Of a stretch of DNA of 25,645 bases, positions 1 through 21,315 are shown piece after piece. Made by a program: the position numbers and the translations under genes. The stretch covers positions 1 to 25,645 of IMG/VR virus record IMGVR_UViG_3300034073_002040, one strand, 5' to 3'. Source of the stretch: a virus. The notes below the pieces were generated by a model. It was given only the letters and a program-made list of their open reading frames with translations, did not search any database and was not told the DNA's origin. Positions within the stretch are counted from its first letter, which is position 1, and every line of letters begins with the position of its first letter.

Positions 1-3
1 CTT

Positions 4-40
4 TGCGCAGGGGGGCGGGGCCTGTCACACCCCCTGCGCA
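4..40 (+). terminator. Strong hairpin upstream of the glycan cassette (terminator or attenuator)
   Basis: TGCGCAGGGGG (4-14) is the exact reverse complement of CCCCCTGCGCA (30-40), giving an 11-bp perfect stem with a 15-base loop. There is no T tract, which is common for actinobacterial and phage terminators. The stem ends five bases before the AAGGAG ribosome-binding site of the next gene. In this position, just after what is probably the capsid gene outside the window, it could end or reduce readthrough so that capsid transcripts exceed downstream ones. The upstream gene is inferred, not seen. Confidence 0.65.
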
Positions 41-55
41 CCCCAAGGAGAAACG

Positions 56-1324
56 GTGGCCCATGCCACGAAAGCGTCAAGAACCCGCAATCGTTCACGT
101 TCGGGGAATCCCGCTCGACGTGCCGCCACCCGAGAGGGAGCAGCTGCTCCGGCTCGGACTGCTACACGAAGAATCGTCTGGGCCAGCAACGCGCCCTGGG
201 CGGCCACGGGCTACGGCGAGCAAACGCAGCAAGTCACCCGACGCATCAAAGCCGCCGGCCACGAAATAGCCATCGCCTCCAACTACGGGCTCGAGGGCTC
301 GACGATGGAGTGGGAAGGCATCCAGGTCTACCCCCGCGGCCTCGACGTCTATTCCAACGACGTCATCCCGGCCTACGCAATGGACTTCGGTCGCCCCACC
401 GGGCAGCAGGCCATCGTCATCACATTGTTCGACTGCTGGGTTTTCAAGGGCGCCGGCTGGGACGTCCTCGAGCGCGTCGCCTCTTGGGTGCCCATCGACC
501 ACTTCCCCGCCCCCGCCCCGGTCACCCAGTGGCTTGCGCGGCCCAACGTCACCCCCATCGCCATGTCGCAGTTCGGGCTTGACGCGATTGAGCGCCATGA
601 CATCGAGGCGCTTTACGTCCCGCACGCCATCGACACCAAGGTTTTCAAGCCGACGGAGTTGATGCAGGGCAGCGACGGCCAAGTGCCCGCCCGTAAATGG
701 ATGGGTGTCCCTGAGGACGCTTTCGTCATCGGCATGGTCAGCGCCAACAAGGGCTCGGTTGATCGGAAATCGTTCTCTGAGTCGTTCCTTGCCGCCGGGA
801 TGTTCATGCAGCAGCACCCCGACGTCTGGCTTTATTTGCACACCGAGCCCAGCCCTGCCATGTCTGGCCTTGACCTGAGGGCCTTGCTGTCCGCGACGGG
901 TGTCCCCGGTGACCGAGTCGCTGTCGCTGACTCGTACTCCTACCGCATGGGCATCCCCAAGGAAGCCCTCGCCAGCATCTACACCGGGATAGACGTTCTT
1001 CTTCAGCCGTCCCGCGGCGAAGGGTTCGGCATCCCGGCTATTGAAGCGCAGGCCTGCGGCACCCCCGTCATCGTGTCCAACGCCACCGCCCAGCCTGAGC
1101 TCGTCGGCGACGGGTGGCTTTGCGAAGTGCAGCCCGCATGGGACTCACCCCAAGGCTGCTGGTTCTTCACGCCCCTCGTGCCCAGCATCGTCGACAACCT
1201 CGAGGCCGCCTACGCGCGCGGCCGCGGCCGCTCCCAGCAGGCCATCGACTTCGCCGCCAACTATGACGCCGACGTCGTGTTCGACAAATACTGGCACCTG
1301 GCGCTTGAAGTGCTCCTGCCATGA
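56..1324 (+). CDS. GT4-type glycosyltransferase
   Basis: Probable retaining glycosyltransferase of the GT-B fold that transfers a sugar from an activated donor, most likely onto a virion protein given its position in the structural operon. The Rossmann-type start RIVWASNAPW lies at about residues 39-48, and a GT4 donor-site motif GEGFGIPAIEAQACGTP at about 321-337 contains E322-x7-E330. With the GTG start at 56 it is 422 residues, including a 38-residue Arg/Ala-rich extension with no homolog-like appearance. There is no ATG, GTG, TTG or CTG in frame between 56 and the conserved N-terminus, so GTG 56 is the only usable start seen; it sits five bases after AAGGAG. It overlaps the next gene by four bases. 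Function is well supported, acceptor and sugar are not. Confidence 0.88.
   Translation: MAHATKASRTRNRSRSGNPARRAATREGAAAPARTATRRIVWASNAPWAATGYGEQTQQVTRRIKAAGHEIAIASNYGLEGSTMEWEGIQVYPRGLDVYSNDVIPAYAMDFGRPTGQQAIVITLFDCWVFKGAGWDVLERVASWVPIDHFPAPAPVTQWLARPNVTPIAMSQFGLDAIERHDIEALYVPHAIDTKVFKPTELMQGSDGQVPARKWMGVPEDAFVIGMVSANKGSVDRKSFSESFLAAGMFMQQHPDVWLYLHTEPSPAMSGLDLRALLSATGVPGDRVAVADSYSYRMGIPKEALASIYTGIDVLLQPSRGEGFGIPAIEAQACGTPVIVSNATAQPELVGDGWLCEVQPAWDSPQGCWFFTPLVPSIVDNLEAAYARGRGRSQQAIDFAANYDADVVFDKYWHLALEVLLP
63..269 (+). CDS. Small basic phage protein, overlapping the glycosyltransferase in another frame
   Basis: This 68-residue ORF starts at ATG 63, 12 bases after AAGGAG (45-50). The N-terminal half reads VHVRGIPLDVP followed by a short acidic/leucine-rich helix, and the C-terminal half is rich in Lys, Arg, Ser, Pro and Ala. 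This resembles small proteins often found just after the capsid gene in actinophages, whose function is unknown. The first 100 bases look more like coding DNA in this frame than in the glycosyltransferase frame; after about base 170 the glycosyltransferase frame is clearly coding. The two ORFs share 207 bases. Either this is a true overlapping gene or one start is misjudged. Only the similarity in style is recognised, not a family. Confidence 0.5.
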   Translation: MPRKRQEPAIVHVRGIPLDVPPPEREQLLRLGLLHEESSGPATRPGRPRATASKRSKSPDASKPPATK

Positions 1325-1836
1325 CCACATGGTTTGCGCAGTTCGCCGAGAGAAACTTTGACACCCTGCTGCCTCGCACGCCCATGGATGTTTTGCAGAT
1401 CGGTGTGTACGAGGGCGACGCTAGCCGCTGGCTACTCGACAACCGAGCAGTCACTCGCCTTGTAGACGTAGATTGCTGGGACGGCCCTCCCATGTCGGGG
1501 GTGGATTACGAGGCGGCCGAGGGGATCTACGACGCCGCTATCGGTGGGCATCCCCTAGTGGAAAAGGTCAAGTCGACAAGCGATGAGTTCTTCAAGACCA
1601 ACACAGACACCTTCGACTTCGTTTATGTCGACGGCGACCACGACCCGCAGCAGACCTACCGCGACGGCATAAATGGGTGGGCGGTTCTGCGGCCCGGTGG
1701 CCTCATCGGGTTCGACGACTATCTCTGGCAGCACAATGGGGTAAGCCCCAAATCGGGCATTGACGCCGTACTCAGTGAAATGGAGGATGCCGAGGTCGTG
1801 CAACACGGCTACCAGGTTTGGTTGCGGAAGCCATGA
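1321..1836 (+). CDS. Class I SAM-dependent methyltransferase
   Basis: A 171-residue Rossmann-fold methyltransferase of the Methyltransf_24 type. The SAM-binding glycine-rich segment VLQIGVYEGDAS is at about residues 24-35. The sequence FVYVDGDHDPQQTYRDG, with D104-G-D-H107, followed by LRPGGLIGFDD, is typical of small methyltransferases that modify sugars or hydroxylated products. ATG 1321 overlaps the glycosyltransferase stop (ATGA), suggesting translational coupling. With glycosyltransferases on both sides, the likely substrate is a glycan or sugar intermediate, for example O-methylation of a virion sugar. This is inference; DNA methylation is unlikely because no target-recognition region or DPPY/NPPF-type motif is seen. 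Confidence 0.85.
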   Translation: MTTWFAQFAERNFDTLLPRTPMDVLQIGVYEGDASRWLLDNRAVTRLVDVDCWDGPPMSGVDYEAAEGIYDAAIGGHPLVEKVKSTSDEFFKTNTDTFDFVYVDGDHDPQQTYRDGINGWAVLRPGGLIGFDDYLWQHNGVSPKSGIDAVLSEMEDAEVVQHGYQVWLRKP

Positions 1837-2597
1837 GGGTTGCCTGGGTGACGCACCACATTCCCAGGGTCGAGGAGCGGCACGAGGCTTTGCTGCCTGG
1901 GAAGTACGCGGGTGGCGCCGAACGCAACACGGACTACATGGTCACAGCGGCGCCGGCTGGTGTCGAGGTCACCTACATCGAACCCGAAGCCGCTGAGAGC
2001 GCCGTAGACGGATCGTTTGACCGGGTAGTAGTCGGAGGCACCGACAAACTCTCCGAAGCCTCTATGAATTTCCTAGCGGCTCACAGGCCCATCGTTTGGG
2101 TGCAGCACGCCCAGCACCGCACACCCGCGAAGGCCGAGTTATTCCGCCAAGCCTCCCGGTTCCTCACCATGAGCCGCGCACACAAAGCCTGGGAAGCCGA
2201 ATGGACCGACAGGGCCGACGCCTACATTCACTCCCCCGTACCACCCGGCCAAGTCACCCCCGGCGTAAAAGAACCCTTCGCCTTGTTCGCCGGCAGGAAG
2301 CACCCAGCCAAGGGGAAACTCAACGCCCGCATATGGGCGCAGCGCCAAGGCGTGGAGCTCGTCGAGCTGGAGAACGCCCCGCACGAGGTCGTGCTTGAGC
2401 ACATGGCCCGCGCCACCTATTTCGTCCATCTCCCCAAGGAGCGGGACGCCTGCCCCCTCGTCGTCATTGAGGCCACCCTCGCTGGCTGCGAAATCGTCAC
2501 CAACTCCCTCGTCGGGCGGCTCGAGCCCGGCGACCCTGCGGCAGTCCTCGCCCAGCAACCCGAGCGGTTCTGGCGAATTGTGGAGGAATCAGCATGA
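1833..2597 (+). CDS. Second glycosyltransferase, short GT4-like
   Basis: A 254-residue protein starting at ATG 1833, which overlaps the methyltransferase stop. It begins MRVAWVTHHIPRV, a typical GT-B first strand, and includes GGAERN at about residues 28-33, as in GT4 enzymes that bind acceptors near the N-terminus. The C-terminal part reads PLVVIEATLAGCEIVTN, with an acidic residue D205 eight positions before E213, resembling the GT4 E-x7-E site. It is shorter than usual GT4 enzymes (350-400 residues), so one lobe may be reduced. It is probably the partner of the first glycosyltransferase, adding a further sugar. A simpler starting call at ATG 1818 is possible but lacks the overlap seen at the other junctions. 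Confidence 0.8.
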   Translation: MRVAWVTHHIPRVEERHEALLPGKYAGGAERNTDYMVTAAPAGVEVTYIEPEAAESAVDGSFDRVVVGGTDKLSEASMNFLAAHRPIVWVQHAQHRTPAKAELFRQASRFLTMSRAHKAWEAEWTDRADAYIHSPVPPGQVTPGVKEPFALFAGRKHPAKGKLNARIWAQRQGVELVELENAPHEVVLEHMARATYFVHLPKERDACPLVVIEATLAGCEIVTNSLVGRLEPGDPAAVLAQQPERFWRIVEESA

Positions 2598-3520
2598 AGA
2601 TCGTTGTCACCGGCTCCGCCGGCACCCTAGGCGCCCCCCTCGTCGCCGAGCTGCGCGAACGCGGCCACGACGTGTGGGGCATCGAACTCCAGCACACCGG
2701 GCAGCCCCAGACCGTGCGCGCCGACATCGCCGACTACCGGCAGCTGCGCGCCGCATTCGACCGCATCGGCGACTTCGACCTCGTCTACCACCTAGCCGCC
2801 GAGTTCGGCAGGATCAACGGCGAGGAGCACTACGAGCAGGTCTGGCGCACCAACGCCATCGGCACCCGCAACGTCCTCGAGCTGCAGCGCGAGCGAGGCT
2901 TCCTCCAGGTCTTCGCCTCATCCTCAGAGGTCTACGGCGAGGCCGACGCCGAAGCCATCGACGAGCGATACCTGCTTGAGCATCCCCAGCCTCGGCTCAC
3001 CAACGACTACGCGATCTCCAAGCGAGTCAACGAGGAGCAGGTCCGCAATTTTGCCGACCGGTACGGCACCAAGACCATGACGCTGCGGTTCTTCAACGCC
3101 TACGGCCCTGGCGAGCGTTACCACGACTATCGCTCCGTCGTGTGCCTGTTCGCCTACCGGCTCCTCACCGGCAAGCCCATCACCGTCTATGAGAACTACC
3201 ACCGGGTCTTCATGTACCAGGGCGACTTCATTAGCACGCTCGCCAACGCCACCAGCCATTTCACGCCAGGTGAAATCGTGAACGTGGGCGGGGACGAGTA
3301 CGTCAGCGTTGAGGACATGGCGAACATGCTGCTGGAAATCACTGAGGCGCACCCGTCCTTGGTGAACCGGCTGCCCATTGACAAGCACAACGTGACCAGC
3401 AAGAAGCCTGACATTTCCAAGGCCAAGGCTCTGCTGCACCACAATCCGCGCACGAGGCTCGCCCAGGGCCTTCCTTTGACCGTCGACTGGATGCGGAAGC
3501 ATTACGAAATCGGAGGCTGA
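2594..3520 (+). CDS. NAD-dependent epimerase/dehydratase (extended SDR)
   Basis: A 308-residue extended short-chain dehydrogenase of the nucleotide-sugar epimerase/dehydratase family. The NAD-binding motif TGSAGTLG is at residues 6-13, the second motif YHLAAEFGRI follows, the SSSEVYGE region supplies the catalytic serine, and Y139-AIS-K143 is the YxxxK dyad. Length and motif order match the family. The likely substrate is a nucleotide sugar that feeds the two neighbouring glycosyltransferases; which sugar cannot be told. ATG 2594 overlaps the previous stop (ATGA). It is the last gene of the cassette and is followed after two bases by the head-tail adaptor gene, so all are probably on one late transcript. 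Confidence 0.9.
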   Translation: MKIVVTGSAGTLGAPLVAELRERGHDVWGIELQHTGQPQTVRADIADYRQLRAAFDRIGDFDLVYHLAAEFGRINGEEHYEQVWRTNAIGTRNVLELQRERGFLQVFASSSEVYGEADAEAIDERYLLEHPQPRLTNDYAISKRVNEEQVRNFADRYGTKTMTLRFFNAYGPGERYHDYRSVVCLFAYRLLTGKPITVYENYHRVFMYQGDFISTLANATSHFTPGEIVNVGGDEYVSVEDMANMLLEITEAHPSLVNRLPIDKHNVTSKKPDISKAKALLHHNPRTRLAQGLPLTVDWMRKHYEIGG

Positions 3521-3522
3521 CC

Positions 3523-4149
3523 GTGGCAATTAGCAACGGCTACGCGACCCTGGCGCAAATCAAGTCTGCGCTGCGCATCGCCTCAGGCGACGCCACCGAC
3601 GACGCCCTGCTGGAAATGGCCGTCGAGTCGGCCTCGCGCCTTATCGACGCGTACTGCGGCCGCAACTTCATCAACGCCGGCACCGCGACCCGGTACTACA
3701 ACACGGACAACCCTTACGTCGTCCAGATCGACGACGCCCGCTCCATTGCCCAGGTGCAGACGTCCACCGGCCTGGACGGCGTGTACGACACGACCTGGAC
3801 TCTTGGCACGGCAGGCGGGCAGGGCGACGCGCAGCCCGAGCCCATCAACGACTACCTGGGCGGCGTCGTGTGGCCGTTCACGCGCATCCGAGCGATCGGC
3901 GACTACACGTTCCCCACGGGTGCCGAAAACTCCATCAAGGTGACGGCCGTATTTGGCTGGCCCAACATTCCTGTGACCGTGACGCAGGCAACCATCCTCC
4001 AGTCGTCAAGAATTTTTGCACGGCTACAGAGCCCCTTGGGCGTTGCAGGCTTCGGCCCCGACATGGGAATCATGCGCGTAAGCCGCGGCCTAGATCCCGA
4101 CGTCACCCAGCTCATTGAGGGCTACCGCAAATTCACGGGCGTCGCATGA
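3523..4149 (+). CDS. Head-tail adaptor (HK97 gp6-like)
   Basis: A 208-residue protein starting with GTG at 3523 after GGAGG (about 3511-3515). The N-terminus YATLAQIKSALRI followed by DDALLEMAVESASRLIDAYCGR is the hallmark of the gp6-like/phage connector family, whose subunits form a ring below the portal and link head to tail. The C-terminal part contains VTAVFGWP and a final helix. Its place immediately before a tail-terminator-like gene supports this. The strange aspect is the neighbour upstream: a sugar cassette separates it from the presumed capsid gene. Confidence 0.82.
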   Translation: MAISNGYATLAQIKSALRIASGDATDDALLEMAVESASRLIDAYCGRNFINAGTATRYYNTDNPYVVQIDDARSIAQVQTSTGLDGVYDTTWTLGTAGGQGDAQPEPINDYLGGVVWPFTRIRAIGDYTFPTGAENSIKVTAVFGWPNIPVTVTQATILQSSRIFARLQSPLGVAGFGPDMGIMRVSRGLDPDVTQLIEGYRKFTGVA

Positions 4150-4556
4150 CCGCGCTCACCGACCTGCGCACCGGGCTCGCCAACCGCCTCGCCACCATCA
4201 ACGGCTTGCGCTCCTCGGCGTACATTCCCGACAATCCCCAGCCCCCGGTCGCCGTTGTCATGCCGGGCCGCATCACCTACGACCAGGCCTTCGGGCGCGG
4301 GTCAGACGAATACCAGTTCACCATCATGCTCATCGTCGGCCGCGTCGCCGACCGGGCATCTCAGACCACGCTGGACGCCTACTGCGAATCAAGCGGCAGT
4401 CGTTCAGTCAAGGCGGCAATCGAGGCCGACCGCTCCCTCGGGGGCAAGGCTCTTGATTGCCGAGTCACCGAAATGACCAACCAGGGCTCGCTCGCCATTG
4501 GGGACGTCACCTACCACACGGCCGAGTTCAGCGTGACCGTGATTGCCGCCGGCTAA
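4146..4556 (+). CDS. Tail terminator / head-tail joining protein
   Basis: A 136-residue protein whose ATG overlaps the adaptor's stop. It starts with a helix, TALTDLRTGLANRLATI, followed by PPVAVVMPG and strands ending in YHTAEFSVTVIAAG. This pattern matches small tail-terminator (gpU-like) proteins of actinophages that cap the tail tube and join it to the head. It lies directly before the tail tube gene, as expected. Motif-level recognition is weak, so a stopper protein is the alternative. Confidence 0.6.
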   Translation: MTALTDLRTGLANRLATINGLRSSAYIPDNPQPPVAVVMPGRITYDQAFGRGSDEYQFTIMLIVGRVADRASQTTLDAYCESSGSRSVKAAIEADRSLGGKALDCRVTEMTNQGSLAIGDVTYHTAEFSVTVIAAG

Positions 4557-4568
4557 GGAGAAAAGAGA

Positions 4569-5000
4569 ATGGCAAAGTTCATTGGCAAGAATCTTCGGGT
4601 GAAGGTCGGCAGCACCGAGCTCACCGCGAACATCGCAAGCGTTGAGGTCACTGAGACCGTCGACGAGATTGAGACCACCGCGTTCGGCCAGTCGGCTCGC
4701 AGCCGCATCGCCGGGCTCAAGGACGCCTCAGTCACCATCAGCTTCCACCAGGACTACGACGCCTCGAGCGTCAACGCCACACTCGGCGGCGTCTTCGGTG
4801 GCACCGCCAACGTGGTCGTCCTCGCGGGCACCTCGCCCACACAGGGCACCGCATCGGCCACCGCACCGTTGTTCACCATCCCCGTGCTCTGCTCGCAGCA
4901 GACGCCTGTCAATGGGCAGGTCGGCGACCTCACCACGTTCGACGTGACGTGGCCCGCCGTCGGCGAAATCACCAAGTCCACCGCTGGCACGTTCGTCTAA
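4569..5000 (+). CDS. Major tail tube protein
   Basis: A 143-residue protein preceded by AAGGAG (4556-4561). It begins MAKFIGKNLRVKVGS and is rich in Thr, Val, Ser and Ala with alternating beta strands (ASVEVTETVDEIETTAFG, ASVTISFHQDY), the composition and layout of siphophage tail tube subunits that stack into the tail. It is followed at once by the tail assembly chaperone genes and the tape measure, the conserved order. There are no extra Ig-like domains at the C-terminus. Confidence rests on position plus composition. Confidence 0.82.
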   Translation: MAKFIGKNLRVKVGSTELTANIASVEVTETVDEIETTAFGQSARSRIAGLKDASVTISFHQDYDASSVNATLGGVFGGTANVVVLAGTSPTQGTASATAPLFTIPVLCSQQTPVNGQVGDLTTFDVTWPAVGEITKSTAGTFV

Positions 5001-5420: not shown

Positions 5421-5960
5421 GTGGCTGACTTCACGGTGCGCGTTGAAGGTGCAGACCAAGCCGTTCGTGCTTTGCGCACGATGGAGCCTGAGACAGCCAA
5501 GCAGGTCGGCAAGGAAATCTCTGATGTGGGCCGCGACCTCGCCGCCTACATTCGCTCAAACGCTCCCGGCCAAGCGCCCATGAGCGGGTGGCGCGAGTCG
5601 GGTGCCGCCCAAGGTCGGACCCGTGGCGGCGCTGGCTGGCCCGCCTGGGCACCCATCTCGGCCACCAGTAAACGGCGCGGCACTTCGGTCACCGTCAACA
5701 TGACCGGTGCGGTCGCTGCCATTTATGAGTCGGCCGGCAAGAACGGGCTTGGCGGACTTTCCAGCCACCCTGACGGTGGGCAGTTCATTCGAAACTTGAG
5801 TCGCTACGGCCGGCTCTACACGTCGGGTGGTCGGCCTCGATCTGGGCGCCTCGCAGGTAAGGCGATCGTCACGCAGTACCCCGAAGCCATACGGCGTATC
5901 CAGGCCGCGTGCGACCGGGCCGTTGAAGCAGTCAACAGGAGGTTGCCCTCATGGCAGTGA
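5421..5960 (+). CDS. HK97 gp10-like tail/neck protein
   Basis: A 179-residue protein with GTG start 5421, three bases after the frameshift product. It starts FTVRVEGADQAVRALRTM and continues with EISDVGRDLAAYIRSNAP and a basic Gly/Arg-rich middle, ending in a helix AIRRIQAACDRAVEAVNRRL. This is the general pattern of HK97 gp10-type proteins, which connect tail and head or complete the tail. Such genes normally precede the tail tube; here it sits between the chaperones and the tape measure, which is unusual. It could instead be a minor tail protein that only resembles gp10. It overlaps the tape measure start by ten bases. Confidence 0.6.
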   Translation: MADFTVRVEGADQAVRALRTMEPETAKQVGKEISDVGRDLAAYIRSNAPGQAPMSGWRESGAAQGRTRGGAGWPAWAPISATSKRRGTSVTVNMTGAVAAIYESAGKNGLGGLSSHPDGGQFIRNLSRYGRLYTSGGRPRSGRLAGKAIVTQYPEAIRRIQAACDRAVEAVNRRLPSWQ

Positions 5961-7864
5961 CAGGGTCAGGCAAGGGCATCCAGATCGTTGTCGGCACCAA
6001 CTACAACGACCGCGACCTCAAGCGCGCGCAGGCCGACCTCAACCGGCTAAGAGGCCAAGCTGCCGCAACCCAAGGCCCCATGCGGAGACTCGGAAACACG
6101 CTTCGCGCAAACCTCGGCCCAGCACTAGCAATGGCTGGTGCGGCAGCCGGCGCCTTCGCCATCAAGCTTGGCGTCGACGGCGTCAAGGCTGCTATCGCTG
6201 ACCAGAAGACCGTTGAGGTCCTAGCCCAAACTCTTGAAAACCTAGGCCAAGCACACAAGCAGGCCGGCGTTGAGGAATTCGTCGCGTCACTTGAGTCGGC
6301 AACTGGTGTCGCTGACGAGAAACTGCGCCCTGCTCTTGGCATGCTGGTTACCGCTACTGGTGACGTCGAGGAGGCGCAGCGCCGACTCAAGCAGGCAATG
6401 GATCTGGCCGTCTTTGGTCAGGTCGATTTGCAGACAGTCAGCAAGGCACTAAGCCGCTCACTTGCAACCCAAACATCGGGCACCCTGTCTCGTTACGGCC
6501 TGGTCATCGACCAGAACACTGTGGCAACCGAAGGCTTCGGAGCCGCACTTGACGAGGCCATGGGCAAGGTTTCTGGCCTTGCTGAGAGAGAAGCCAAAAC
6601 CCTCGAAGGCCAGCTGCGAATTCTGGCAACGGAATTCGGCAACGTTCAGGAAGCCTTCGGCTACGGGTTCCTAGGTGGGCTAGGCGACGCTACCGACGGC
6701 GTCGGAGACATGTCCCAAATGATGCGGGACTTCAAGCCCATCGCGCACGACTTGGGTGAGCAGATCGGAACTCTCGCCAAGGCCCTGTCGGATCTAAACG
6801 ACCAGACAGGAATTGTCGCCGCCACATTCAAGGGCCTCACCGATATCACCGGCCCCACCCTCGACGCGATCCTGACTTTGTACCGCGTCCTCGGCCAAGG
6901 GGAAGACCCGGTCGAAGCCTTAAAGCAGCAGTTCTTCGGACTCGGCGAAGGCTATGACGATGTCGCTGACGGTGCCGGCAATGCTTCCTGGCTGACTGCC
7001 AAGGCCGGCGAAGTCTTTGGCACGACCGCTGGCTTCGCTGGTGAAATGGCTGACGAGACCGACGACGCAGCTGACGCGCTCAAGGAACTCAATGACCAAA
7101 TGAAAGAGTTCTTTGGGTTCCTTGACGAGCGCGACGCCGTTCGCGGATACCAGGACGCGATAGACAATTTGCGCGAGTCGCTGAAGGAAAACGGCAAGAC
7201 CTTCGACATAAACACTGAAGCTGGCCGAGATAACCAGAAGGCGCTAGACGGAATCTTCGACTCAGCACTCAAAGTGGCTGAAGGTCAAGCGACTGCTGCC
7301 CAAAAGATTGCCACGATGGAAGGCGCAGCTCGGGACGCAACCAGGCAACTAGACAAAACCAAGATGTCTGACGCGGCCAAGGCCGCTTTGCTTGCCCCCT
7401 TTGACGATGCCATCGCTCGATTCACAACGGCCACCACAAAGGTTGGCAACCTCAAGGCGGCAATGGAGACCATTCCAACGAAGATAAATGTGAACGTCAC
7501 TGTCGGGACGACATACGTTGGAACGCCCCCACCGGGCGGATTCCCGACAACTCGCGGATCTGCCTACGGCGGCTATGTCGGCGGCCACGGTGGCACTCGA
7601 GCGGACGACGTCCCCGCGATGCTGTCCTCTGGCGAGTTTGTCATCCAGGCTCCTGCTGTGGCGAAGTTCGGCAAAGGCTTCTTCGCTGCACTGAACCAGG
7701 GCGTAAACCCGCTCGCAGGGATGACTCCACGCATGGGCGGATCTGGCGGCGGCTTGACGATCAACGGCGGCATCACAGTGCAGTCTGCGCCGGGTGAGCG
7801 TGCCGAGACCTCCCTCCCTCGCGCGCTGCGGCGTGCCTCATTCCTGGCAGGCGTGAATGGCTGA
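5951..7864 (+). CDS. Tape measure protein
   Basis: A 637-residue protein, the second longest ORF of the tail module, located right after the chaperones. It begins with a helical, Arg/Gln-rich stretch, followed by a hydrophobic segment at about residues 56-75 (ALAMAGAAAGAFAIKLG), long helical regions rich in Ala, Glu, Lys and Asp, and a glycine-rich C-terminal part (YGGYVGGHGG, then the VPAMLSSGEFVI motif very common in actinophage tape measures). The tape measure sets tail length; by the usual rule of about 0.15 nm per residue this predicts a tail near 95 nm. No lytic peptidase or transglycosylase domain is obvious, unlike many larger tape measures. Confidence 0.92.
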   Translation: MAVTGSGKGIQIVVGTNYNDRDLKRAQADLNRLRGQAAATQGPMRRLGNTLRANLGPALAMAGAAAGAFAIKLGVDGVKAAIADQKTVEVLAQTLENLGQAHKQAGVEEFVASLESATGVADEKLRPALGMLVTATGDVEEAQRRLKQAMDLAVFGQVDLQTVSKALSRSLATQTSGTLSRYGLVIDQNTVATEGFGAALDEAMGKVSGLAEREAKTLEGQLRILATEFGNVQEAFGYGFLGGLGDATDGVGDMSQMMRDFKPIAHDLGEQIGTLAKALSDLNDQTGIVAATFKGLTDITGPTLDAILTLYRVLGQGEDPVEALKQQFFGLGEGYDDVADGAGNASWLTAKAGEVFGTTAGFAGEMADETDDAADALKELNDQMKEFFGFLDERDAVRGYQDAIDNLRESLKENGKTFDINTEAGRDNQKALDGIFDSALKVAEGQATAAQKIATMEGAARDATRQLDKTKMSDAAKAALLAPFDDAIARFTTATTKVGNLKAAMETIPTKINVNVTVGTTYVGTPPPGGFPTTRGSAYGGYVGGHGGTRADDVPAMLSSGEFVIQAPAVAKFGKGFFAALNQGVNPLAGMTPRMGGSGGGLTINGGITVQSAPGERAETSLPRALRRASFLAGVNG

Positions 7865-12195: not shown

Positions 12196-13938
12196 ATGGC
12201 GATGCCCGCCAACGTCACGACCGTGGTCGTGCTCGGCACGTTCCTCACTCCCGAGGGCAACCCCTCAACCGGGACCATCACGTTCACGCCTTCGCGCTGG
12301 CTGACCAACTCAGGCGCCGACGTCGCCATCCCCAACTCCTCAGTCACCAAGACCCTCGGAACCGCCGGCGACTTCCAGGTCACCCTGCCGGTCACCGACG
12401 ACGCCGACCTCCAGCCCGCCAACTGGTTCTACACCGTCAGCGAAGTCATCGACGGGGTCAGCCAGTCTTACGCGATCCTGCTACCAGGCACCGCTGGCAG
12501 CGGCGGCACCGTCTACCTGGCCGACATTGCGCCGGCCGCCGAGCTCGGGCCTGAGTATGCGAGCCTTCGAGGCCCAGCCGGTGAGGCCGCGACGGTCACC
12601 GTCGGCACCGTCACCTCAGGCGCAGCGGGCGGCACCCCCACGGTCACCAACTCGGGCACCAGCGCGGCCGCTGTCCTCGACTTCGTGCTCATTCCCGGCG
12701 CCACCGGCCCGACTGGCGCTACCGGGCCCACGGGCCCGCAAGGCCCGCAAGGCGACGCGGCAACCATTGAGGTCGGGACCATCGGCACGGTCGCCTACCC
12801 GGGGCCAGGAACCGTCACCAATTCCGGCACGTCAGGCTCCGCCGTCTTCGACTTCACCCTTGTCACCGGCCCCCAAGGAGAGACCGGCGCGACCGGGGCT
12901 CAAGGTCCGCAGGGCGACGCCGCCACCATCGAGGTCGGCACCGTCGGCACCGTCGCCTTCGGCGGCACACCGACTGTTACAAACTCAGGCACCAGCGGCT
13001 CTGCCGTCTTCGACTTCGTGCTCGTCACCGGGCCCCAGGGCGAGCAGGGCATTCAGGGCATCCAGGGCGAGCAAGGCATCCAGGGCATTCAGGGAATCCA
13101 AGGCGAGACCGGGGCGACTGGTCCGCAGGGCTCGGCCGCCACCGTTGAGGTCGGCTCGGTCACCTCAGTCGCCTACGGCGGCACCGCGGAGGTCACAAAC
13201 TCAGGCACCTCGGGCTCGGCGGTGCTAGACTTTGTCCTCGTCACGGGCCCCCAAGGCGACCTGGCCGGTTTGTCCGCCAATGCCCCCCTGGCCTACGCCG
13301 CCAACACCTTCGATCTGCTGTACGGGGCGGGCCTTGGCACCGCCTCGGGCGGCACCCTCGTGGCCGACTTCTCCGACGCCACCCCAGCGGCGCTGGGCGC
13401 AGCTGCCGCCGGCACCGCTGAGGAACTGTCCAGGGGCGACCACGTCCACGCCATGCCTTCGGCCGCCGACGTCGGCGCCGTCGGAACCGCGACCACCATC
13501 ACGGCCGGCACCGGCCTCGCCGGCGGCGGCGACCTGTCGGCTTCCCGCACCCTCGACCTGGTCCTCTCTGACGCCACCCCGCTGGCCGTGGGTAGCCCGG
13601 CGGCCGGCACCGCGACCAGCCCAGCCAGGGCCGACCACGTCCATGAAGGCACGACCCTGTCCTCAGACACCCCGGCAGCCTTGGGCACCGCAGCTGCCGG
13701 CACGGCGACGACCGCAGCCCGAGGCGATCACGTCCACTCGACTGATGGACTTGTTCTAAATTCCCTGATTACGACCAAGGGCGACCTCATCGTTAGGGAC
13801 GCTTCGGCTCCGGCTCGCCTCGGGGTGGGCACTAACGGGCACGTCCTGACCGCTGACAGCGCCGAGACAACCGGCGTCAAATGGGCCGCCCCGTCCGGTG
13901 GTGGCGGCCTTGATCCATTCCTTCTGATGGGAGCCTGA
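12196..13938 (+). CDS. Collagen-like tail fibre with HVH motifs
   Basis: A 580-residue protein starting right after the previous stop. Residues 1-115 form a beta-rich head (TTVVVLGTFLTPEGN, WFYTVSEVIDG). About 125-355 contain four copies of a unit like AATVEVGTVTSVAYGG plus VTNSGTSGSAVFDFVL, each linked by collagen-like Gly-X-Y stretches (GPTGATGPTGPQGPQG, GIQGIQGEQGIQ). The C-terminal part repeats DATPxALGxAAAGTA...RGDHVH, with HVH at 416-418, 481-483 and 512-514; in T4 long tail fibre tips similar HxH motifs bind iron. It is likely a trimeric receptor-binding fibre. The end, VKWAAPSGGGGLDP, is typical of a fibre C-terminus. Confidence 0.85.
   Translation: MAMPANVTTVVVLGTFLTPEGNPSTGTITFTPSRWLTNSGADVAIPNSSVTKTLGTAGDFQVTLPVTDDADLQPANWFYTVSEVIDGVSQSYAILLPGTAGSGGTVYLADIAPAAELGPEYASLRGPAGEAATVTVGTVTSGAAGGTPTVTNSGTSAAAVLDFVLIPGATGPTGATGPTGPQGPQGDAATIEVGTIGTVAYPGPGTVTNSGTSGSAVFDFTLVTGPQGETGATGAQGPQGDAATIEVGTVGTVAFGGTPTVTNSGTSGSAVFDFVLVTGPQGEQGIQGIQGEQGIQGIQGIQGETGATGPQGSAATVEVGSVTSVAYGGTAEVTNSGTSGSAVLDFVLVTGPQGDLAGLSANAPLAYAANTFDLLYGAGLGTASGGTLVADFSDATPAALGAAAAGTAEELSRGDHVHAMPSAADVGAVGTATTITAGTGLAGGGDLSASRTLDLVLSDATPLAVGSPAAGTATSPARADHVHEGTTLSSDTPAALGTAAAGTATTAARGDHVHSTDGLVLNSLITTKGDLIVRDASAPARLGVGTNGHVLTADSAETTGVKWAAPSGGGGLDPFLLMGA
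12583..13257 (+). repeat. Four tandem protein-coding repeats with collagen linkers
   Basis: Repeat units begin at about 12583, 12754, 12916 and 13132, spaced 171, 162 and 216 bases. Each encodes the same strand set ending in AVxDFVL/T followed by Gly-X-Y triplets of variable number. The unequal spacing comes from the triplets, as expected from unequal recombination or slippage within the collagen part. Confidence 0.8.
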
Positions 13939-20423: not shown

Positions 20424-21203
20424 TCACGACGCCCACGCGCCGACAGCACGCTCAAGCTCGCTGTCATCCACATGAGTGTAAATCTCAGTAGTTGAAATAG
20501 AAGCATGCCCCAGCAACTGCTGGACAGCCCGAATGTCATGCGACGCCCGATACACGTTGCCCGCAAAATAGTGCCGCAGCGAGTGAGCCGACCACTTACC
20601 CGGCAACGCCCTAGCAATACGGCGCCCCATAGCGTCCGGCGTAATCGGACCGCCATCCACATTAGGAAAGGCATACCCGCCACGCCGCTGAACCTCACGC
20701 AACTGCTCCTCAAGCAGCGGATGAATAGGAACACGACGCACCTTCGAGCCCTTGCCCGTGATCGTCAGCATCCGATCCCCGATCTGGTCCGCATGCAGGC
20801 TCGCAATCTCAGCCCGCCTCAAACCAGCGTAAGCAGCCAGCATGATCGCCAGCCTGTCCCGAGCCTCAACCTTTTCCAAGGCCTCAAGCAGCGCCTCCTT
20901 CGGCGCCTCCTTGACGGACCTTGGCGGCATCTTGATAGCCCTCGTCTTAGCCGTGGGGTCCACGCTCAGCCGGCCAGACTCAATCGCCCAGCGGTAGTAC
21001 GACCGCAGACTGGCCCTAGCCGACAATTTGGTGGCCGGCTTCCACTCAGGGTTTTCCAGCCACTTGATGATGACTTCTGGCGTCGCCGTGTCCAAGTCCT
21101 GGACCCGCGTAAATCGCTCAAGGTGCTGGACTCGAAGGTTGATGGTGCCTTCGGTGTGGTTGCCTGCCCGAAGCCAGGACTGGTACTCAGGAAAGGCAGT
21201 CAT
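20424..21203 (-). CDS. int: Tyrosine integrase
   Basis: A 259-residue tyrosine recombinase with ATG at 21203-21201. A SAM-like core-binding domain is at about 1-90 ([30 protein letters not shown]). The catalytic domain contains R129 ([13 protein letters not shown]), K151 or K154 ([12 protein letters not shown]), H207-SLR210 (HSLRHYFAG), H233 ([11 protein letters not shown]) and nucleophile Y242 (IYTHV). It catalyses integration between attP and a host tRNA gene. It is small and lacks an obvious separate arm-binding domain at the N-terminus. Upstream starts reaching 21290 would read through the G tract; ATG 21203 begins directly at the conserved part. The G run lies three bases before it. Confidence 0.93.
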
Positions 21204-21206
21204 CTG

Positions 21207-21222
21207 CCCCCCCCCCCCCCCC
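21207..21222. repeat. 16-base homopolymer C (G on the integrase strand)
   Basis: Sixteen consecutive C residues on the plus strand, ending three bases before the integrase start codon on the minus strand. Read on that strand, the G run is where the ribosome-binding site should be and could pair with the 16S CCUCC end. Homopolymers of this length slip easily in replication and in sequencing. Confidence 0.9.
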
Positions 21223-21315
21223 GCTGGTTTGGGGCTTTGCGTGTCTTGCCATGTCTTCCCCCCGGTCGTTGGTCGTGAATGAACATCCACATCTACCGCC
21301 TTTTATCTGCGCAGG

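Follow-up and report, generated by a model that had tools for sequence, protein, structure and literature searches.

What is a set of glycan genes doing inside the head-tail operon of a phage? The question is raised by the IMG/VR contig IMGVR_UViG_3300034073_002040, analysed here over its entire length of 25,645 bases (64% GC; hereafter the window), for which no near relative was found among phage isolates. A first-pass annotation had described four genes directly before the head-tail adaptor as a glycan cassette, comprising two glycosyltransferases (GT1 and GT2), an S-adenosylmethionine (SAM) methyltransferase (MT) and a nucleotide-sugar epimerase/dehydratase (SDR). We consider it fairly probable that this cassette makes a short glycan for the phage's own particle and attaches it there, the capsid being the likeliest site.

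Results

The four genes occupy intact open reading frames on the plus strand (GT1, 56-1324; MT, 1321-1836; GT2, 1833-2597; SDR, 2594-3520), joined by three ATGA overlaps (1321-1324, 1833-1836 and 2594-2597), and the adaptor gene (3523-4149, plus strand; PF05135, phrog_442) starts right behind them. The window begins just 3' of the gene for the major capsid protein (MCP), which lies outside it. This gene is found directly upstream of the cassette in L288, whose sequence matches the window at 100% identity across the part of the cassette that they share. In the contig IMGVR_UViG_3300034072_000270, also identical across the shared part, MCP is followed by about 200 bp of spacer before the GT1 core, and then by GT1. 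Hence, the proposed placement of the cassette inside the virion operon is borne out. Intact relatives, with a GT1 at 72-100% identity common to about 100 IMG/VR contigs, and dN/dS ratios (nonsynonymous to synonymous substitutions) of 0.04-0.2 for GT1 and SDR, which denote strong purifying selection, put the cassette far beyond chance. Judged from sequence, it is a real, functional-looking glycan module.

A profile search with GT1 recovered at least 594 relatives. For gene order we used an adaptor-anchored set, the best 80 of at least 591 loci, which may be biased to close relatives and includes some overlapping views of one contig. In this set, GT1 stands before the adaptor in all 56 loci that extend far enough upstream (another 20 did not), and MCP directly precedes GT1 in most loci where it is in view. 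In contrast to this fixed GT1, the slot between GT1 and the adaptor is highly variable, ranging from 46 bp (L342) to 3,348 bp. The 73 slots with both borders hold about 20 gene clusters, a few of which (c21, c22) are wrong-frame artefacts. Glycosyltransferases of both GT-A and GT-B types, sugar-nucleotide enzymes and several unrelated methyltransferases are the commonest content, with clusters of a GT2-family transferase (62 members), GT17, a cytidylyltransferase, SDRs and, weakly, MptE-like proteins. By our own count, the several methyltransferase clusters, together with the methyltransferase of Pontimonas phage phiPsal1 (MG835450), occur in 17 of the 73 slots. We read GT1 as a fixed anchor and the genes that follow it, up to the adaptor, as an exchangeable module.

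Some slots hold genes of other kinds. A GIY-YIG homing endonuclease with NUMOD3 motifs lies between GT1 and the next glycosyltransferase in L250 (6861-7487) and might help modules to move. The slot of L227 holds a radical SAM-SPASM protein (5653-6594) and that of L218 a 2OG-Fe(II) oxygenase (2688-3452), either of which might modify proteins or sugars in ways other than glycosylation.

Comparison with close relatives reveals how the slot changes. Among the distinct GT1-to-adaptor segments of our first scans, 42 carried GT2 and SDR, and a single contig, belonging to the window's own lineage, had MT in addition. The alignment of the window with its nearest relative, L077, covers 1-1321 and 1831-4713, and L077 has no sequence separating the two blocks, indicating that some 510 bp carrying MT were cleanly inserted into a conserved GT1-GT2-SDR cassette. 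In the rest of IMG/VR no close relative of MT was found; its next best full-length homologues share 36-40% identity and belong to other phages. These comparisons point to MT as a lineage-specific addition. Thus, a glycan cassette is indeed shared among relatives, but the four-gene block that the first-pass annotation proposed to seek in them represents just one of the states that a modular slot can take, with MT missing from the 42 other distinct copies. In L129, a methyltransferase alone separates GT1 from the adaptor.

In other relatives, whole modules are replaced exactly at gene ends. Eight rows used for the GT1 tree carry a different SDR together with a GT2-family transferase, and against this second module the homology of the window stops at 1326 and resumes at 3521, both of which are gene ends. 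On the GT1 tree, the second module needs at least four changes, of which the starred branches force one only. Moreover, L189 and L191 keep GT2 and SDR at 70-80% identity, while GT1 and the adaptor stand at 47-48% and the tail protein at 34-35%, a pattern best read as transfer of the GT2-SDR pair. Both module classes occur under one sample number in contig names, e.g., 3300034072 and 3300037502.

As regards the identity of the enzymes, GT1 is a GT4-type glycosyltransferase by profile (PF00534, 50 bits against a cut-off of 26.4; phrog_2170) and displays the EX7E motif as EGFGIPAIE. With 17.2 bits, GT2 stays under its Pfam cut-off of 27, so that the claim of two glycosyltransferases holds by profile for the former and by predicted fold for the latter. 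The structure prediction suggested earlier gave an AlphaFold model of GT2 (predicted local distance difference test 88; predicted template modelling score 0.85) with a GT-B fold, whose best matches by Foldseek and VIA-align are glycosyltransferases. VIA-align Z scores reach 19-21 over 234-241 of 254 residues with the GT4-type enzymes tll1591, BshA, AviGT4 and SenB, and 20.7 with 7fg9. GT2 is thus predicted to fold as a small GT-B/GT4 enzyme. Its start was moved from TTG 1818 to ATG 1833.

The nearest solved relative of SDR is Mth373 of Methanothermobacter thermautotrophicus (8w3u/9ar1; E 1e-70); human UXS1 matches at E 2e-27, and the Pfam match of SDR is PF01370 at 147 bits. Mth373 was co-crystallised with UDP-xylose (UDP, uridine diphosphate) and assigned as a UDP-xylose synthase (PMC12820599). 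By alignment, SDR keeps the catalytic set of UDP-xylose synthases (S110, E112, Y139 and K143) and the carboxylate-binding R73 in the Mth373 pattern. Two residues differ, Tyr73 of Mth373 being Phe and Gly184 being Ser, the usual pair among homologues (PMC12820599), and SDR otherwise retains the residues which that paper names. SDR is therefore a probable UDP-glucuronate decarboxylase/UDP-xylose synthase (EC 4.1.1.35): the cassette appears to bring its own sugar-nucleotide enzyme, as claimed, although one closer to UDP-xylose synthase than to an epimerase. Since SDR is most like this enzyme, the cassette is predicted to use a pentose (+132 Da), which is more likely than the hexose-type sugar first proposed. 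The SDRs of the alternative module and of Microcystis phage Mae-JY09 both have human UDP-glucuronate decarboxylase as their best solved relative.

MT was correctly called a SAM methyltransferase (PF13578, 58 bits; class I SAM fold, Z about 15-16) and has invariant D99, D104, D106, D132 and D133, an acidic metal-site motif. The sugar methyltransferases MeT1, MycF, SpnH and NovP are among its neighbours in fold; catechol and tRNA methyltransferases are equal in Z, so a sugar substrate for MT is suggested by its context.

GTG 56, the probable start of GT1, is the sole start codon in its frame, and the conserved domain begins at 170 (RIVWASNAPW); the leader in between, of about 38 codons, thus overlaps a small open reading frame (ORF) of 68 aa in another frame (63-269, plus strand). 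This small ORF (MPRKRQEP...GIPLDVPPPEREQLLRLGLLHEE) is conserved up to about 170. Before 170, selection favours the small-ORF frame (ratio of nonsynonymous to synonymous polymorphism, pN/pS, 0.43 vs. 1.34), whereas after it the GT1 frame is favoured (0.37 vs. 1.05); in the small-ORF frame, pN/pS is 0.43 at 99-170 and about 1 beyond 174. ATG 63 of the small ORF is kept in 49 of 49 sequences, and so are GTG 56 (TTG in L130) and the open GT1 frame. The simplest reading is that GTG 56 and ATG 63, 7 nt apart, share one near-conserved Shine-Dalgarno sequence, AAGGAG (45-50, plus strand). A -1 frameshift joining the small ORF to GT1 is unlikely, given the GTG (or TTG) and open frame kept throughout; no conserved slippery heptamer was seen and the GAAGAA stretch is missing in several relatives. 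Readthrough of the MCP stop into the small ORF is opposed by a stop that varies (TGA, TAG or TAA), by a second in-frame stop in some relatives and by an RNA stem that begins 15-17 nt away.

That stem, S1, belongs to an RNA element between MCP and GT1. The window begins inside the element and holds its 3' part (1-40, plus strand): the loop at 2-13, the 3' strand of S1 at 14-28 and the 3' strand of a second stem, S2, at 31-40, which pairs with loop positions 4-13. The 5' strand of S1 precedes the first base of the contig. A full copy is present in L005 (2121-2184), where, as in its relatives, a stem of 13-16 bp closes the loop TTTGCGCAGGGG, which can pair with CCCCTGCGCA just downstream, adjoining the GT1 ribosome-binding site. 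The loop core CGCAGG and its downstream complement CCTGCG lie directly behind MCP in most relatives. Two-sided changes affect 9 of the 16 S1 pairs (29 cells, vs. 7.0 in shuffles and 0-2 in slid controls). S2 always pairs and hardly varies, its support being complementarity and not covariation. Altogether, S1 and S2 probably form an H-type pseudoknot. The stem model matches GT1-upstream spacers only (62 sources) and scores 55 bits on window positions 1-49, cut off at the 5' end, and stems of at least 10 bp surround CGCAGG in 67 of 934 contexts, compared with 127 of 17,978 for permuted hexamers. The wcaG RNA of cyanophages was considered as a candidate for the element, and no Rfam family matched it at E up to 1. 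In five contigs (L324, L332, L335, L337 and L342), 0.6-1 kb of extra sequence separates the element from GT1 and the element stays about 25-33 nt behind the MCP match, which suggests that it is no less tied to the 3' end of MCP than to GT1. Possible roles are a partial terminator, a protector of the mRNA 3' end or a brake on the cassette.

Beyond the adaptor, the right border of the slot, the window codes for a tail terminator (4146-4556) and a major tail protein (4569-5000), both on the plus strand and assigned by phrog_17840/phrog_4574 matches in the 4146-5000 context. A tyrosine integrase (PF00589, 97 bits) lies on the minus strand at 20424-21290, and also on the minus strand in L200 (9048-9827); hence, the phage group is probably temperate. 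A 580-aa tail-region protein (12196-13938) has a collagen-like repeat just below the cut-off (PF01391, 25.7 bits) and is a possible fibre.

One relative was binned in an Actinomycetota metagenome-assembled genome (MAG) and another in a Gammaproteobacteria MAG, where short contigs may be misbinned. GT1 relatives were present in 2 of 166 genomes of the order of the Actinomycetota MAG. Actinomycetota are the likeliest host, in view of phiPsal1.

Discussion

The results suggest how the cassette could work. GT1, encoded right after MCP, would start the glycan by transferring a sugar from a nucleotide sugar of the host. Judging by the active-site residues of SDR and by its closest relative of known structure, this enzyme would turn UDP-glucuronate from the host into UDP-xylose or another UDP-pentose like it, and GT2 would put the pentose onto the first sugar. 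MT may then cap one of the sugars with an O-methyl group, and the glycan would be displayed on the particle with a virion protein as acceptor. The mass shifts to be expected are +132 for each pentose and +14 for methylation, and not only +162. Likely benefits are tuning or evading surface recognition, adsorption or particle loss in water; the phage-antibody contact evoked earlier has little bearing on an environmental phage. The fixed order of MCP, GT1, slot and adaptor, a slot content that is overwhelmingly glycan-related, the gene-exact insertion of MT and exchange of modules, and a GT2-SDR pair kept at 70-80% where its flanks fall to 34-48% all favour this scheme. Several points weigh on the other side. 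The attachment to a virion protein, and the acceptor itself, are drawn from gene position and synteny, for which virion glycosylation is the best explanation. MT is present in one population only, GT-B and class I methyltransferase folds leave the substrate unfixed, and the assignment of Mth373 rests on the co-crystal and residues, not on enzymology (PMC12820599).

The high variability of the slot, with its homing endonuclease, radical SAM-SPASM protein and 2OG-Fe(II) oxygenase, also counts against a coordinated glycan and would suit a site used mainly for cargo, where GT1 is functional and the other genes are independent morons, as would the L342 copy with hardly any space between GT1 and the adaptor. 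Nearly all slot genes, however, fit sugar activation, transfer or methylation, GT2 and SDR travel together and SDR is under strong purifying selection. We regard cargo as possible for single slot genes and as an improbable account of the slot as a whole. Given that the phage group is probably temperate and that serotype-converting prophages are well known, the cassette could instead alter host wall glycans, late in infection or during lysogeny, and thereby block superinfection or free the progeny. Yet, the four proteins have no transmembrane-like segment (maximal 19-residue hydropathy 0.5-1.6) and include no flippase, lipid-carrier glucosyltransferase or multi-pass transferase of the kind that makes up a Gtr-type serotype-conversion cluster. 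Since the genes also lie inside the head-tail operon and GT1 accompanies an intact head operon wherever the relatives allow a test, we give this explanation little weight.

DNA hypermodification, in which SDR makes a UDP-pentose that the transferases place on modified phage bases for protection against nucleases, draws on the pentose-modified cytosines of RB69 and Thanatos (PMC6024577, PMC12838424) and on the T4 DNA alpha-glucosyltransferase among the Foldseek matches of GT2. PF00303, the thymidylate-synthase family that includes dCMP hydroxymethylases, was absent from five long relatives, which may be fragments, and from the complete phiPsal1, while control genomes were positive. The cassette moreover sits among head genes and not with replication genes, and we find hypermodification unlikely. 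Virion glycosylation remains the reading that we prefer.

The exchange of modules implies that related phages on one backbone should show different glycans. It is probable that these aquatic phages coat their particles in sugars that can change, and the anchor glycosyltransferase seems to be a constant component of their head-tail operon. It is possible, at less than even likelihood, that they possess a dedicated glycan-diversification system with an apparently obligatory capsid-adjacent glycosyltransferase, a gene-exact plug-in slot and a pseudoknot that sets the dose of the cassette; particle coats would then change their sugars in the manner of O-antigen switching in bacteria. Few phages are known to glycosylate their virions, and the subject has been treated mainly with regard to antibodies. 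Fast module turnover beside a constant backbone offers a testable case of phage coats under diversifying selection in nature, and the locus supplies a set of putative UDP-pentose makers, compact GT-B transferases and cap methyltransferases, with a probable protein acceptor encoded next door.

Among known systems, the mycobacteriophages Che8, Corndog and Myrna also encode glycosyltransferases, and glycans on their capsid and tail tube proteins have been shown (Freeman et al. 2023, as described in PMC12363180 and PMC12691614); no exchangeable slot is mentioned in the accounts consulted. The parallel with mycobacteriophages drawn in the first-pass annotation stands as a precedent for virion glycosylation (PMC12363180) and not as homology: of 50,697 phage records searched by tblastn, GT1 matched 12, none of them a mycobacteriophage, and GT2 matched none. 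Thanatos and RB69 share phage-encoded UDP-pentose handling (PMC12838424, PMC6024577) but are T4-like with another gene order, and their base-modifying synthase was not found in the relatives examined here. Mth373, with the same active-site fingerprint as SDR, belongs to an archaeal cell-envelope gene cluster (PMC12820599). Tetrasphaera phage TJE1 (HQ225832), an actinobacterial phage, combines an epimerase, a methyltransferase and a glycosyltransferase, but these lie before the terminase and not after MCP, and its glycosyltransferase is only 25% identical; it is a separate assembly of similar functions. Closer in layout, Mae-JY09 (PP395641) has MCP, a small gene, a GT1 at 40% identity, an unknown gene, a UXS-like SDR, another unknown gene and the head-tail adaptor; its second and fourth genes differ and Pfam finds no methyltransferase. 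In phiPsal1, whose genome paper (PMC6106888) does not discuss the phage, MCP is followed by a group I glycosyltransferase, a SAM methyltransferase, a GT2-family glycosyltransferase and a gp6-like neck protein, that is, the same slot. Identity to the window is 45% for GT1, 40% for the adaptor, 45% for the tail terminator and 42% for the tail tube. Unlike in the window, the methyltransferase is on the other strand and of another family, the second glycosyltransferase is GT-A, there is no SDR, and a classical terminator hairpin takes the position of the RNA element. Phage-encoded virion glycosylation is thus known in principle; the anchor-plus-slot organisation, the likely pentose and the lineage-specific methyltransferase are new.
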